The position numbers and the translations under genes were made by a program. A stretch of 64,000 nucleotides of DNA from Prevotellaceae bacterium (GTDB lineage: Bacteria > Bacteroidota > Bacteroidia > Bacteroidales > Bacteroidaceae): assembly GCA_031262085.1 (NCBI GenBank), contig JAISIN010000121.1:1-64000 (forward strand), in the 5' to 3' direction. Positions 1 to 59,474 of this stretch are shown piece after piece (within the stretch, counting starts at the first letter, position 1; every line of letters starts with the position of its first letter). The notes under the pieces were generated by a model. That model worked only from the letters and a program-made list of their open reading frames with translations. It did not search any database and was not told the DNA's origin.

Positions 1-281
1 GCTACACCTAAAAAATAACTTTACTGTGTTCTACATTGGCTTTTGGAGAACCAATCAACGGCTGGCATACCTGTGACGAGGAAAACTTTTTGAAAATTTC
101 TCAAAGTGGGAAAGTTGGGCCAAATCATTACCCATTCAAAACGTTATAGAGCCTTATTTTACAACGCTATCTTTAGCTACAGCCGGCACTGACTCATAAA
201 AACTTCTGGTGAAAGCAAATACAGAAGTGCTTCTCACTACGTTTTGGCTCTTGACAGGTATCTGAATAAGTAATCCAAATC

Positions 282-350
282 CGGAAGTGAGACAGCGCCA
301 AACTCGGAAGTGAAACAGCGCCAAACTCGGAAGTGAAGCTGGGCGAACCG
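282..350. repeat. Intergenic tandem repeat, 23-bp period, 3 copies (CGGAAGTGAAACAGCGCCAAACT)
   Basis: Units at 282-304, 305-327 and 328-350; units 1 and 2 differ at one base, unit 3 is partly degenerate. Confidence 0.85.
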
Positions 351-13948: not shown

Positions 13949-14061
13949 CTTTTTAAGAGTCGATGAAGGGGTTTTTAAGGATCGAAAAGCGAGAACTTTG
14001 GTGGTCGAAGGCAGAAGCTTTGACGGTCGAAGGCAGAAACTTTGACGGTTGGGTGCAAGGT
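13949..14061. repeat. Intergenic tandem repeat, 22-bp period (CTTTGACGGTCGAAGGCAGAAA)
   Basis: Good units at 13996-14017, 14018-14039 and 14040-14061; weaker related units at 13949-13970 and 13971-13995. Confidence 0.8.
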
Positions 14062-14069
14062 TATACTGT

Positions 14070-14094
14070 ACGCGGGGTAATTTTTATCCCGCGT
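14070..14094 (-). terminator. Candidate terminator of HTCS1
   Basis: ACGCGGG / CCCGCGT inverted repeat immediately downstream of the HTCS1 stop codon (14101). Confidence 0.45.
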
Positions 14095-14100
14095 TCAGTA

Positions 14101-17100
14101 TCAATAAAGCGAGGGTACCACTCCGTACATCGCCTTGAATGACGACGTGAAGTGCGACTGGCTGAGGAAGCCGGTCATGACGGCAATCTCTTTGATGGAG
14201 TACTTGCGAGTCTTGAGCAGCATGGCAGCTTGTTTGCAGCGCATGTTGCGTACAAAGTCGCGAGGGGGAGAGCCTGTTAGTTCTTTGAGCTTGCGATAGA
14301 GATGCGTGCGACTGATACCTACCTCGATGGCGATGGTGTCGAGGCTGAACTCCGGGTCGGAGATGTGGCGGTTGATCGATTCCATGATGCGGTTGAGCAG
14401 GTACTCGTCGTTCGACAGGGTGTTGCTGCCGTCGATGTCTATGTTTTCATCGGGGACGGAGTTCTCGTTGAAGCTGTTGCGCATCAGGTCGCGGTTGTGT
14501 ATCAGGTTGAGGACGGCTTTGCGGATGATGTCGATATTGAACGGCTTGGTGAGGTAGAGGTCGGCGCCGGTGTCGATTCCTTCGAGCATATCTTCTTCGC
14601 AGGTGCGGGCGGTAAGCAGGATCACGGGCAGGTAGTTGATGCTGACGTTCTTCTTGATTTTGCGACACAGGGTCAAGCCGTCCATCTCGGGCATCATGAC
14701 GTCGCAGATAACCAAGTCGGGCGATTGGGTGAAGATGGCATTGAACGCCTCTTTGCCGTTGGCGTAGCTGCACACGCGGAAATCCTTGTGCAGCTCGCGG
14801 CAGAGATAGTTGCGTATCTCTTCGTCGTCCTCGACCACCATAATCTTATAGTGGGTGTTGGGTTGTCGGTAGGGGGTGGCGGGTGGGGTATCGTCGGTCA
14901 GGTTGTCGGTCTTTGCCTCCTCGTCGACCGGTTCGGGGATGGTGGTTTGGGGCAGTGTGTCGTCAATCTCCTCTTGGGTGAGATGCTCTTTGCCCAACGG
15001 CAGGCGGATGAGGAAGCAGGTGCCCGGCTTGCCGTCGGGGCATGCCTCGGCGCGGATGATGCCGTGGTGCAGCTCTACCAGCGAGCGGCAGAGGTGCAGT
15101 CCGATACCGGTGCCTACGGATCGGTTGTTGTAGTTGTTGTTGACCTGATAGAAGCGCTCGAAGATGCGCTCACGCTCTCCGTCGGGGATGCCGATGCCGC
15201 TGTCTTCGATGACTATCTCGAAGTAGTTTTGCAGCGGCGGCTTGGCGGCAGGGTCGTTGCCGGTGCGCAGGCGAATGGTGATGGCGCCTTCCTTGGGGGT
15301 GAACTTCAGGGCGTTGGAGAGCACGTTCATAATGACCTTGTCGAAGTTCTTGGGGTCGATCCATGCCTGCACTTGGTCGACTTCGGGCGCAAAGGTGAGG
15401 CTGATGTGACGGGAGGCAGCCTGTTGCCCGAAGATTTCGTAGATATTATCGATAAAGCCCTTGAGTTCCGTTTGGCGGAAGTGGAGGTGCATCTGTCCTT
15501 TGTCGAGCTTGCGCACATCCATCAGCTGGTTGACCAAGTGCAAGATGCGCTCGGCATTGCGGTAGATGGTGCGGTAGTTGTCGGTACGCGCCGGGTCGCG
15601 GTCGGTAGCCATGAGGCGTTGCAGCGGACTGATGATGAGCGACATGGGTGTGCGTATCTCGTGCGATATGTTGATGAAGAATTGTAGCTTGGCTTCGTTG
15701 ATTTGCTCGGCGTGGCGATGTTCGAGCATGCGTTGCCGGGCGCGGATGCGCTGACGCACCAGCATCACCATGCCGTAGAGGGCAAGCAGCAGGAGCAGTA
15801 GGTAGAGGGTCTTGGCAGCAGTAGAGGCATACCATGCCGGTTCGATGACGACTGTAACCTCCTTCGTGTCGGAGTAGGCATTGTAGGTACGCGACCTGAA
15901 GCGGAAGCGGTAGGTTCCGGGCGACAGGTCGCCGAACGATACGCGGTTGATGCCCTGTTGCAGGTCGGTCCACTTGCCGTCGTTCAGGGAGTACATGTAA
16001 TAGATATGGTCTTGCCCGTAGAACTCCATGGCAGAGACCTCAATGTCGAAGGTGTTGTCGTTGTGGGAGAGGTGAAACCGCGGAGCGTCCATCACGGCGG
16101 TGTCGACAATGTCGTATTTTCCCGACTTCATGCCCTTCTTCACCAAGCGGTTGTGCAGGTAAAAGCCGGTGATGCGTATGTTGGGTTTGCGGAAGGGCAT
16201 GCCTATCTCCGACGGATAGAAGTAGGTGACACCGCCGGTGCCGCCGAAGAAGAGCTGCCCGCCGGCGCCGGTATATGACGCCCGCTTGCTGAACTCGTTG
16301 CCTTGCAGTCCGTCGCTGGCGTAGAAGTTCAGGAAGGTGTGTGTGGCAGGTTGGAAGTGGCTGATGCCATATCCGGTGCTGAGCCAGATGCTGCCATGCT
16401 CATCTGCCTGAATGCCGCAGATCAGGTTGTTGGGCAGTCCGTCTTTGCGCGAGTATTCGTTGATGTGCAGGGTCTCCCAGTCGAGCTGCTTCAACCCGTC
16501 GGAGGTGCCTATCCACACGTCGCCGGAGGCATCTTCGTAGAGGCTGTACACCACGCTGCCTGCCAGCAGGCGGCGGGCGTTGAGCGGGCTGATGAAGTTC
16601 ATGGTGTGCAGGTCGAGGCATCCTATGCCGTCGAAGGTGCCGATGATGAGTTTGTCGTCGCGGGTGCGCAGCAGGCAGTTGATGTAGGAGTTGTGCAGTC
16701 GGTTGGTCTCTCCCCAGCCCACGTTCTCGATGGCTTCTACGTCGAAGGTGCCGGTGATGCGGCGGGTGGCAAGGTCGAGGCGGAACAGTCCGCCGCCCAT
16801 GGAGCCTATCCACAGATTGCCGTGCCGGTCTTCGGCAAAGGCATAGACATTGGATGCGGGGTTGCCCGAGGGGGTGCGCAGCGGGATGTATTCGCACCGC
16901 CCGCTCTGCGGGTCGAGGCGAGCCATGCCTTGCAGGTACGAGCCTATCCAGATGTTGTGCCGGCTATCTTCGAAGATGCTCATGATGGTGGCAGGCACGG
17001 CGTGCGGATCGCCCGGATGGGGTGCGAAGTGTCGGCGTTGGCTGCCGTCGGGGGCTATGCCGTACAAGCCGTCGTTGTCGGTAGCCACCCAGAGCATGCC

Positions 17101-36933: not shown

Positions 36934-38388
36934 GTGATTCACTTCAAAACCATCTTTCGCATCATCGGATTCTTGCTGCTATTGGAGACGGTGATGTTGC
37001 TTATCTGCACCGGCATCTCTATCTATTATGATGAGAGCGACCAACGGGCACTTTGGATTTCGTCGGCTATTACGCTGTGCGCCGGTGTCGCACTGCTTGT
37101 TGGGAACCGACGGACGGAACGTACCTTGACGCGACGCGACGGATACGTATTGGTGAGTTTCTCGTGGATTACATTTACCGTGTTCGGCATGTTGCCGTTC
37201 CTTCTCAGTGGATGCATTCCCAACCTTGCCAATGCTTTCTTTGAAACCATGTCGGGTTTGACTAGTACCGGCGCCAGTATCCTTAGCAACATTGAATCGC
37301 TTCCCCACGGCATTCTGTTCTGGCGTAGCATGACCAACTGGATAGGCGGACTGGGTATCATCATGTTCACCATTGCCGTGCTTCCTATCTTCGGTGTCAA
37401 CGGGCTGCAGGTCTTCGCTGCCGAAGCCAGCGGACCGATACACGACAAGGTGCATCCCCGCATCGGCATCACTGCCAAGTGGCTTTGGGTGGTTTACACC
37501 GGACTTACTGCCGTTCTTGTGGTGTTGCTCATGGCCGGAGGAATGAACTGGTTCGACAGTATCTGTCACGCCTTTGCCACTACCGGAACAGGTGGATTCT
37601 CTACCCGACAAGCCAGCATTGCCTACTATCACTCACCCTATATAGAATATGTTATTTCTCTATTTATGTTTATATCGGGCATAAACTTTACATTAATGTT
37701 ATTGCTCATCAACCGAAAATTCAAGAGGGCGATACACGATGCCGAGTTGCGGTGGTATTTCTGGTCGGTGGTGCTCTTTACGCTCGTGATAGCTGTCATC
37801 ATCTATAATACGGTGCCGGGTACCGATGCCGAAGGGGCGTTCCGCAAATCACTCTTCCAAGTAGCATCCCTGCACACCTCTACCGGCTTCATTACCGATG
37901 ACTACATGCAGTGGCCCTCTATGGCTTGGGGATTGCTCACGATCGTTATGCTTATGGGCGCTTGTGCCGGCAGCACCACCGGCGGGCTGAAGTGCATCCG
38001 TTTGATCATTTTAGGAAAGGTGGCACGCAATGAGTTCCGACGCATTCTGCACCCCAACGCCGTGTTGCCGATACGTATCAACAAGCAGGTTATCTCGCCG
38101 ACACTTCAATCGACGGTGTTGGCATTCAGCTTTATCTATACCATGGTGATTATTATCAGCGTGCTGATATTGGTCTCTATGGGGCTGAACTTCGAAGAGT
38201 CGATGGGATGTGCCATCTCGGCTGTGGGTAATATGGGACCGGGATTGGGCAAAACAGGACCTACTTACTCATGGGCGTCACTGCCCGAAGCAGCTAAATG
38301 GCTGCTCTCCTTCCTCATGCTGCTGGGGCGATTGGAACTCTTCACGGTGTTGCTGCTGTTGACGCCCGATTTCTGGAAGAAGAATTAG
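36934..38388 (+). CDS. trkH: Trk/Ktr-type potassium transporter membrane subunit TrkH
   Basis: Selectivity-filter-like TGLTSTGASI, TTGTGGFST, HTSTGF, AVGNMGPGLG motifs; directly downstream of trkA. Confidence 0.95.
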   Translation: MIHFKTIFRIIGFLLLLETVMLLICTGISIYYDESDQRALWISSAITLCAGVALLVGNRRTERTLTRRDGYVLVSFSWITFTVFGMLPFLLSGCIPNLANAFFETMSGLTSTGASILSNIESLPHGILFWRSMTNWIGGLGIIMFTIAVLPIFGVNGLQVFAAEASGPIHDKVHPRIGITAKWLWVVYTGLTAVLVVLLMAGGMNWFDSICHAFATTGTGGFSTRQASIAYYHSPYIEYVISLFMFISGINFTLMLLLINRKFKRAIHDAELRWYFWSVVLFTLVIAVIIYNTVPGTDAEGAFRKSLFQVASLHTSTGFITDDYMQWPSMAWGLLTIVMLMGACAGSTTGGLKCIRLIILGKVARNEFRRILHPNAVLPIRINKQVISPTLQSTVLAFSFIYTMVIIISVLILVSMGLNFEESMGCAISAVGNMGPGLGKTGPTYSWASLPEAAKWLLSFLMLLGRLELFTVLLLLTPDFWKKN

Positions 38389-38477
38389 ATGAAGGGAATA
38401 GTCGTAGACTGTATTTCTTGCAATTCCAGACCTAATGATACGAGAAACAGGGCAAAGAGTTTATGTAACAACGAAAT

Positions 38478-38609
38478 CTCCCTTTGATGTGAGGCAAAAC
38501 TCCCTTTCATCTGATGCAGATCTCCCTTTCATCTGATGTAGATCTCCCTTTGATCTGATGCAGATCTCCCTTTGATCTGATGAAGAACTCCCTTTGATAT
38601 TCAGACAAA
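38478..38609. repeat. Intergenic tandem repeat, 22-bp period, 6 copies (CTCCCTTTGATCTGATGCAGAT)
   Basis: Units start at 38478, 38500, 38522, 38544, 38566 and 38588; the inner four are nearly identical. Confidence 0.92.
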
Positions 38610-38834: not shown

Positions 38835-39197
38835 ATGGAAAAGCTGACACTACAAGAAGAAGAAGCTATGATTTATATCTGGGAATCGGGTAACTGCTTT
38901 ATCAAAGATATCGTAGCCAAGTACCCCGTACCGGCACCACCCTATACTACCGTGGCATCTATCGTGAAGAATCTCGAACGAAAGCGCTATGTCACTGCCC
39001 GACGTGTGGGGAATACCTATCAATATGCGCCTGCCATTGCCGAGAGCGAATACAAACGAACTTTCATGAGTGGTTTTGTGCGCAACTATTTCGAGAACTC
39101 CTACAAGGAGATGGTCTCTTTCTTCGCCCGCGAACAGAAAATTTCTGCCGACGACCTGCAAGACATCATCGCCATGATAGAAGAAAGCCGAACGTAA
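38835..39197 (+). CDS. BlaI/MecI/CopY family transcriptional repressor
   Basis: EKLTLQEEEAMIYIWESG...YTTVASIVKNLERKRYVTARRVGNTYQYAP winged helix. Confidence 0.93.
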   Translation: MEKLTLQEEEAMIYIWESGNCFIKDIVAKYPVPAPPYTTVASIVKNLERKRYVTARRVGNTYQYAPAIAESEYKRTFMSGFVRNYFENSYKEMVSFFAREQKISADDLQDIIAMIEESRT

Positions 39198-58012: not shown

Positions 58013-58179
58013 GTCAGTTTCGTTTTTTAATTAAACATACGCAGCCTTTCTTTGATCGGAAAGGCTACAAGAAATCTTTTCGAGCGCAAAGGTAGTTGAT
58101 ATTTATGTTATAAAACATATTATCGTGCTTCTTTTTGTCTTTTTTAATTGAATCGTGTGCGGCAACGCTATTTTAGAAG

Positions 58180-58232
58180 GTGCTTATTCGCCTTTAGCGG
58201 GTGCTTATTCGCCTTCAAAAGGTGCTAATCAG
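58180..58232. repeat. Tandem repeat, 21-bp period, about 2.5 copies (GGTGCTTATTCGCCTTTAGCG), overlapping the 3' end of mntH
   Basis: Units 58180-58200 and 58201-58221; partial unit from 58222 lies in the last codons of mntH. Confidence 0.8.
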
Positions 58233-59474
58233 CAGCATGATGTTCAGCACTGTCACTATGGTAGCGATGGTGTAGAGCACAGAGCTGTTCCATCGGCTAT
58301 TGGCATACTTTCCCATCACCCGCTTCGAGGAGGTCAGTCCGACTTGCAGGAAGACGGTGAACGGTAGCTGAATGCTGAGTACCATTTGCGAGATCAGCAA
58401 TCCCTTAAACGGGTCGCCGATGAAGCAGATCAGCAACAACGCTATTCCCAGCGAGATCAGTACTCCCACCTGCGAGTGGCTGTCTTTGATGTGATAGGAT
58501 TCGCCAAACATCCCCGCAAAGATCGAACCGGCAGCCATGCCGCTGGTGATGGTCGACGAAATGCCTGCCATGAGCAGCGCCAGTGCAAAGATGATAGCCG
58601 CACTATTGCCCAACAGCGGTTCGAGGAGCGACTTGGCTTGTTGCAGCTCTTCCACAGGCAGGCTGTCTTGGAAGAAGGTGGCAGCAGCCAGCAGAATCAT
58701 AGCGCTGTTGATTGCCCATCCCACAATCATGGAGAAGAGCGTATCAAACAGCTCGTATTTCAACACTTTGCGGATGGAGGCATCGTCTTGCTTGTTGTAT
58801 TCGTGACTTTGAATCACCTCCGAATGGAGAAACAGGTTGTGGGGCATGACCACTGCCCCCAACACACTCATGATAATCAACATGCTTCCTTGCGGAAACG
58901 TGGGCTTTACCCATCCTACGGCGGCTGCGTCCCAGTTGATCTTGACCAGAAACAGCTCATAGATAAACGACAGACCGATGACAGAGACAAAAGCGATGAT
59001 GGAGCGCTCTATCTTCTTGTAGGAATTGGTAAAGAGCATGACGACGACAAAGATCGTCGTCAATACCGCTCCTGCCACGATGGGTATATCGAACAGCATC
59101 TGCAAAGCAATAGCACCTCCCAGTATCTCTGCCAGCGAAGTTGAAATAGATGCCAGCACAGCCGAACCCAGTATGGGACGCGAGATCCATTTGGGAGCAT
59201 ATTGCGTGGCAGCTTCCGAAAGGCATAATCCGGTCACAATGCCTAAGTGAGCCACGTTGTGTTGCAACACGATCAGCATAACGGTAGAGAGCGTGACCAC
59301 CCAGAGCAGTGCATAGCCATACTCCGAGCCTGCGGCAAAGTTAGACGCCCAGTTACCCGGATCGATAAACCCGACGGTGACCAATAATCCGGGACCTATA
59401 TAGCGAAAGATATCCAAGCCGCCCAAGTGGCGTTTGTGGTCTTTACGCTGCAGGTCTTTGATAATATTCTTCAT
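58215..59474 (-). CDS. mntH: NRAMP family Mn2+/Fe2+ transporter
   Basis: GPGLLVTVGFIDPGNWASNFAAGSEYGYALLWVV, VVMPHNLFLHSEV. Confidence 0.95.
   Translation of the reverse strand: MKNIIKDLQRKDHKRHLGGLDIFRYIGPGLLVTVGFIDPGNWASNFAAGSEYGYALLWVVTLSTVMLIVLQHNVAHLGIVTGLCLSEAATQYAPKWISRPILGSAVLASISTSLAEILGGAIALQMLFDIPIVAGAVLTTIFVVVMLFTNSYKKIERSIIAFVSVIGLSFIYELFLVKINWDAAAVGWVKPTFPQGSMLIIMSVLGAVVMPHNLFLHSEVIQSHEYNKQDDASIRKVLKYELFDTLFSMIVGWAINSAMILLAAATFFQDSLPVEELQQAKSLLEPLLGNSAAIIFALALLMAGISSTITSGMAAGSIFAGMFGESYHIKDSHSQVGVLISLGIALLLICFIGDPFKGLLISQMVLSIQLPFTVFLQVGLTSSKRVMGKYANSRWNSSVLYTIATIVTVLNIMLLISTF

Follow-up and report, generated by a model that had tools for sequence, protein, structure and literature searches.

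A 22-bp intergenic array between trkH and blaI as a probable copy of a species-specific dispersed minisatellite in a Prevotellaceae gut bacterium

Introduction

Bacterial minisatellites are usually regarded as isolated slippage products. An array of six 22-bp units between trkH and blaI, found in a window of 64,000 nucleotides (the whole stretch of DNA analysed here), raises the question of whether such an array arose where it stands or belongs to a larger population of related sequences, and of what the arrays of similar period in the same window have to do with it. We hereby describe the anatomy of this array, its relatives in the genome of its host, the corresponding DNA of the nearest relative, and the distribution of arrays of this period in other genomes.

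Results

The array and its neighbours in the window

The six units run head to tail and without spacers from 38478 to 38609, as direct reading of the window shows; TRF calls the array at 38476-38598, with a period of 22, 5.6 copies, 89% match and a score of 183. Both readings bear out the six-unit, spacer-less array described in the initial annotation. A CRISPR array is ruled out, the units standing head to tail with no unique spacers between them. The array starts 90 bp after the trkH stop and ends 225 bp before the start of blaI (Table 1), and units 1 and 6 are those that depart most from the consensus.

Three further arrays that had been reported in the window are also present, both by TRF and by direct reading, and dinucleotide-shuffled intergenic DNA of the window yielded no such array in 5 trials. 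By simple ORF calls, the array at 275-343 lies under a 105-aa ORF whose reality is doubtful. Right after the array that starts at 13993, positions 14063-14101 hold a 39-nt inverted repeat, 82% self-complementary and similar to a terminator hairpin.

Table 1. Features of the trkH-blaI gap and the other tandem arrays of the window
Feature	Position	Strand	Remarks
trkH, potassium uptake	36934..38388	+	Pfam TrkH, 1.1e-71
Leader AAGAGTTTATGTAACAACGAAAT	38455..38477	+	identical over 24 bp with the leader of the copy at G000:C49 (L049:8740-8763)
Unit 1, first-unit type CTCCCTTTGATGTGAGGCAAAA	38478..38499	+	the family's most frequent first unit
Units 2-5, CTCCCTTTSATCTGATGYAGAT type, unit 5 ending GAAGAA	38500..38587	+	CTCCCTTTCATCTGATGCAGAT is the most frequent middle unit of the family (n=25)
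Unit 6, end module CTCCCTTTGATAT, then divergent sequence	38588..38609	+	family ends [GTC]TCCCTTTGATAT
blaI-type repressor gene	38835..39197	+	Pfam Penicillinase_R, 8.4e-29
23-bp x3 array	275..343		TRF; single copy in genome; unrelated sequence
22-bp array, 3 clear units from 13993 (13993-14058) and 2 weak units before	13949..14058		single copy in genome
21-bp x2.6-3 array	58172..58234 (TRF 58172-58226, x2.6)		single copy in genome

A dispersed family in the same genome

With the array as query, the whole genome yields 37 places (E<=0.001, both strands), and a 17-base unit pattern allowing at most 2 mismatches gave 85 matches (44+41), against 0 for the reversed control. With arrays of 44-176 bp, a period that is not a multiple of 3, and 37 places, the family is short, non-coding and multi-copy. 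Each copy has 2-8 units, mostly 5-6, and in the copies that were fetched the blocks follow one order: a leader, a first-unit type, variable middle units, a penultimate unit and an end module. The first unit is CTCCCTTTGATGTGAGGCAAAA or a close variant and the middle units are mostly CTCCCTTTCATCTGATGCAGAT; the penultimate unit CTCCCTTTGAAGTGAGCCGGAT is fixed in 17 copies, the end [GTC]TCCCTTTGATAT occurs in 18 of 36 copies, and the end module TTCCCTTTGATAT/GTCCCTTTGATAT, that is [TG]TCCCTTTGATAT, in 16. Across the family, positions 1-8 of the unit are near-invariant and the second half holds most of the variation.

Leaders and tails are common to copies at unrelated loci, with tails that differ by subgroup. 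The leader of the trkH-blaI copy ends in GAAAT, as in one further copy, other copies having alternative leaders that end in AAATTAT; the trkH-blaI copy is also without the fixed penultimate unit CTCCCTTTGAAGTGAGCCGGAT and without tail repeats. Many copies of the family continue into further small repeats that are rich in hairpins. The hairpin CCATTGAAAACGTTATAGCGCCGGATAAATCCCCTTG is one of these tail repeats: both of its arms, each about 37 bp long, are complete in L057, where the inverted repeat follows the array directly, and other copies have lost one arm. Another tail type is a 9-bp repeat block around an AT-rich core, with inverted ends; at L031:10075-10230, L061, L066 and other loci of this genome the 9-bp repeats GTAGACGAA and GTGGACGAA flank such a core in inverted orientation downstream of family copies. 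The intergenic array periods of this genome have a second peak at 9. In the sampled sequence of the genome, tail repeats were found solely near arrays, and many family copies lie at contig ends, probably because of these repeats. The copies with callable neighbours stand between genes, but short ORFs, most likely not real genes, overlie some copies.

Had replication slippage produced the trkH-blaI array at its present site, with no link to any other, it would be a local minisatellite. The number of units does vary among the copies, as slippage would allow, but 37 places share this sequence, with its order of units, leader and tails, and slippage alone makes no prediction of a shared period of 22-23. 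The 37 places refute a local origin, which we consider extremely improbable for this array, although it fits the other three arrays of the window, each present in single copy. The proposal that the window holds four independent local arrays is thus true of those three, which match only themselves, and fails for the array between trkH and blaI.

The same recurrence bears on a second explanation, that the array is a set of binding sites specifically regulating trkH or the blaI operon. An array that ends 225 bp ahead of the blaI start would suit such a role, but the same array stands in about 36 other gene neighbourhoods, and the sister species, whose syntenic gap has conserved blaI-proximal DNA, has no such array there; we regard specific regulation as very unlikely.

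Limits of the family

The family has no match in 36 genomes of the same genus and 24 of other families, nor in plasmids, and the unit pair, sought as an exact pattern, is absent from the GTDB and viral contigs scanned. The nearest relative, a Prevotellaceae MAG whose TrkH is 90% identical, has no copy of the family. That the family has spread is demonstrated by its copies: about 37 places, a preserved order of units, the same leaders and tails in unrelated neighbourhoods, and absence from relatives.

A TIR search found no terminal inverted repeat common to the copies of the family, and for this reason the family is not filed as a MITE; no transposase could be tied to it. At the trkH-blaI gap no precise empty site is readable against the relative, because the flanks of the gap are too diverged to align.

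Families and structure in the sister species

The relative has dispersed 23-bp families of its own, with 26 and 6 matches, none of them in the genome of the window. The larger one consists of AACGTGAGTTCGA, a leader, 5-9 units of TTTGATATGACCATATCACGATG, a tail and TCGAACTCACGTT, and it looks like a well-formed MITE. Loci of this TIR-enclosed family in G061 are L252-L257 and L116:12902-13120, with TIRs of 13 bp (AACGTGAGTTCGA/TCGAACTCACGTT). The exact TIR core has 24 matches in the genome of the relative, 0 for the reversed control and 1 in the genome of the window. No consistent target-site duplication flanks the TIRs in the sister copies that were read, and no autonomous element bounded by the exact TIR pair at a distance of about 1-2 kb turned up in the incomplete genome of the relative. 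The same TIR, with one mismatch, also adjoins a second 22-bp array of unrelated sequence (L132:6447-6511).

The syntenic trkH-blaI gap of the relative contains no CTCCCTTT array. It contains five units of 22-bp periodic DNA of different sequence, in which 39 of 66 positions match at lag 22, against a 99.9% limit of 36 for shuffled DNA over lags 8-60. A second gap (L063 / L130) likewise carries unrelated arrays in the two species. Blocks of unrelated sequence with the same 22-23-base rhythm in the sister species suggest that the rhythm has been kept and the sequence replaced; two arrays in one gap may nevertheless be a coincidence, because the arrays of the relative are so dense. A 23-bp x6 array (GTGGGTACCGGTATTTACTGTTC) also lies downstream of a blaR-like gene of the relative (L075:8871-9016), and there is none at the matching place of the window.

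The arrays of the relative fold far better than shuffles, with mean z of -4.3 and -4.1 on the two strands. Their unit mostly includes an inverted repeat: 15 of 23 arrays have a stem of 5 or more, where 2.9 would be expected. The length of their dyads varies (10-20), with a constant dyad spacing of 22-23. Compensatory changes in the dyads number 7 against 5.0 by chance (p 0.19), so that covariation, tried as a proof of selection for structure, is not significant. In 25 copies of the trkH-blaI family, mean z is -0.19 on one strand and +0.89 on the other, and the array itself gives -1.5 and +1.1; selection for RNA structure, which the initial annotation had offered as one cause, is therefore unsupported for this family. 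The arrays of the relative are structured and this family is not, so the period is common to all and the hairpin is not.

Tandem RNA hairpins at gene ends, acting in termination, RNA stability or as small RNAs, would account for the strong folding of the arrays of the near relative (a mean z of about -4.2 for either strand, and the excess of stems), but they leave the unstructured trkH-blaI family out, the dyads lack significant covariation and Rfam has no match for the array; as an explanation of this array the hairpins have very little probability. Smaller still is that of REP/BIME-type repeats whose spread depends on a Y1 (RAYT) transposase. The repeats are indeed short, dispersed and intergenic, and those of the relative contain dyads; however, Y1_Tnp (PF01797) has no match in the genome of the window or in that of the array-rich relative G019 (91% and 74% complete), against matches in 17 other genomes, and as far as these assemblies allow, Y1/RAYT is excluded as the agent.

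Arrays of similar period across genomes

The sample of the genome of the window amounts to 570 kb picked around family copies, and its array densities are biased because it was chosen in this way; the window alone and contigs C1-C20 of the relative are free of that bias. With the family set aside, 23 of 44 intergenic TRF arrays in this sample have periods of 20-24 bp or multiples, against 0-1 in shuffled DNA. The corresponding figures for the relative (G061, which seems to be identical with the genome G019) are 23 of 26 in 225 kb, again against 0-1, at a density of about 100 arrays per Mb. In G028 the class comprises 8 of 11 intergenic TRF arrays; several distant genomes have 0-11 arrays per Mb, and G026 has 40 per Mb, from four arrays only. 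Samples of 20 kb from other genomes of the genus contain 22-23-bp arrays of unrelated sequence in about half of the cases.

Intergenic DNA matches itself with peaks at lags 22/44/66 in the first sample (family included) and at 23/46/69 and 22 in the relative. The clustering of intergenic TRF periods at 20-24 bp and multiples, in the genome of the window and in sister species, runs against the lack of a 21-23 bp excess that the initial annotation had named as a refutation, and together with the lag peaks it supports the reading that the common feature of the arrays is their period and not their sequence. The 75 non-family arrays form only nine sequence-sharing pairs, all but one within one species. 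One array sequence is common to both species, L031:2138-2338 in the genome of the window and L130:9168-9381 in the relative (84% over 197 bp), with no other detectable similarity there. At L062:1541-1802 in the genome of the window, two inverted 22-bp arrays surround a third, palindromic 22-bp array, and together they could fold into a hairpin whose arms measure 64 nt and are 86% complementary.

Non-family arrays are found in divergent gaps in 7 of 61 cases, against 49 of 154 in the background (Fisher p 0.002), figures that are approximate because the genes are simple ORF calls. This avoidance would be expected if the arrays were functional and constrained in period, a nucleoid or transcription protein binding once per two helical turns and the sequence families being interchangeable. 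The period excess over shuffles in several species, the 22-bp periodic DNA of other sequence in the trkH-blaI gap of the sister species and the constant spacing of dyads of varying length all agree with such a function. Against it stand the density of arrays in the relative, with which a shared gap may be a coincidence, and the lack of a candidate protein; moreover, avoidance of divergent gaps may mean merely that promoters are left undisturbed. We consider this function improbable, though clearly less so than the explanations discussed above.

Discussion

The array between trkH and blaI is, in our judgement, probably a copy of a species-specific, non-coding dispersed minisatellite, a member of a clade-wide class with a period of 22-23 bp, and largely neutral or selfish. 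The element comprises a leader, 2-8 ordered 22-bp units and variable, hairpin-rich tails, and the block may spread as a unit, non-autonomously and probably in a MITE-like manner, its number of units then changing by slippage or unequal recombination. The spread presumably took place in its own species after the split from the sister species, and families would turn over quickly between such species, the period staying the same. The array itself is most likely DNA tolerated between genes.

A MITE mechanism for this family would be an analogy drawn from the sister family, no common TIR having been found in its own copies. Transposition alone does not explain the constant period, and the period of two helical turns most likely reflects a geometric constraint, set either by a bound protein or by an enzyme that builds or moves the arrays. 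More tentatively, and with the odds against it, the class may be defined by the period itself: each species of this Bacteroidales clade would build and spread its own families, the same gap would come to hold unrelated arrays of equal period in sister species, and a dedicated process or binding protein that measures two helical turns would maintain them.

A genome-wide preference for one period in several species, with unrelated sequences and rapid turnover of families, makes a testable case. Either there is a class of non-autonomous elements that carry minisatellites, with BrickBuilt as one case among many, or the shared period comes from a geometric constraint that acts on DNA between genes. 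The arrays would also account for some of the breaks in assemblies of such genomes.

Comparison with known systems

The literature holds no paper that we could find on intergenic arrays of 22-bp units from Prevotella or from Bacteroidales of the termite gut, nor a report of a genus-wide preference of period across unrelated arrays with family turnover; the BrickBuilt papers are the sole close match. BrickBuilt is a 23-nt minisatellite-MITE of Porphyromonas gingivalis (Klein et al. 2015, PMC4596501), and in anatomy the trkH-blaI family is the same kind of thing. Both have spacer-less tandem units of 22-23 nt in variable copy number, a first part of the unit that is the most conserved, a leader and a tail, and about 20-40 dispersed copies (about 20 for BrickBuilt) in one species and its nearest kin, intergenic in the trkH-blaI family where neighbours are callable. 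The likeness is one of anatomy, with a unit of 22 nt against 23 nt. Unlike BrickBuilt, the trkH-blaI family has no TIRs that could be found and no predicted long stem-loop, and the hairpin repeats in its tails are others. The leader and tail of BrickBuilt, which is likewise intergenic, have measured bidirectional promoter activity.

REP/BIME sequences with RAYT are likewise short dispersed intergenic repeats, but they form inverted pairs, whereas the arrays described here run head to tail in a genome where no Y1 transposase was found. VNTR-141 and VNTR-105 of Wolbachia contain 23-bp hairpins within the period, which are thought to promote slippage (Riegler et al. 2012, PMC3287509); they too are intergenic bacterial arrays, but their periods are 105-141 bp, their loci are few and they show no 22-23 period class.

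P. gingivalis also has MITE239/MITE700 and ISPg3, of the IS5 family (Table 2 of PMC4596501). No minisatellites are reported inside MITE239/700, and the trkH-blaI family is without the ACGTGAGTTCGA TIR. The 23-bp family of the sister species is bounded by ACGTGAGTTCGA, a sequence identical with the left TIR given for MITE239 and different from ISPg3 by one base (PMC4596501), and with these TIRs an IS5-type route becomes plausible for the class.
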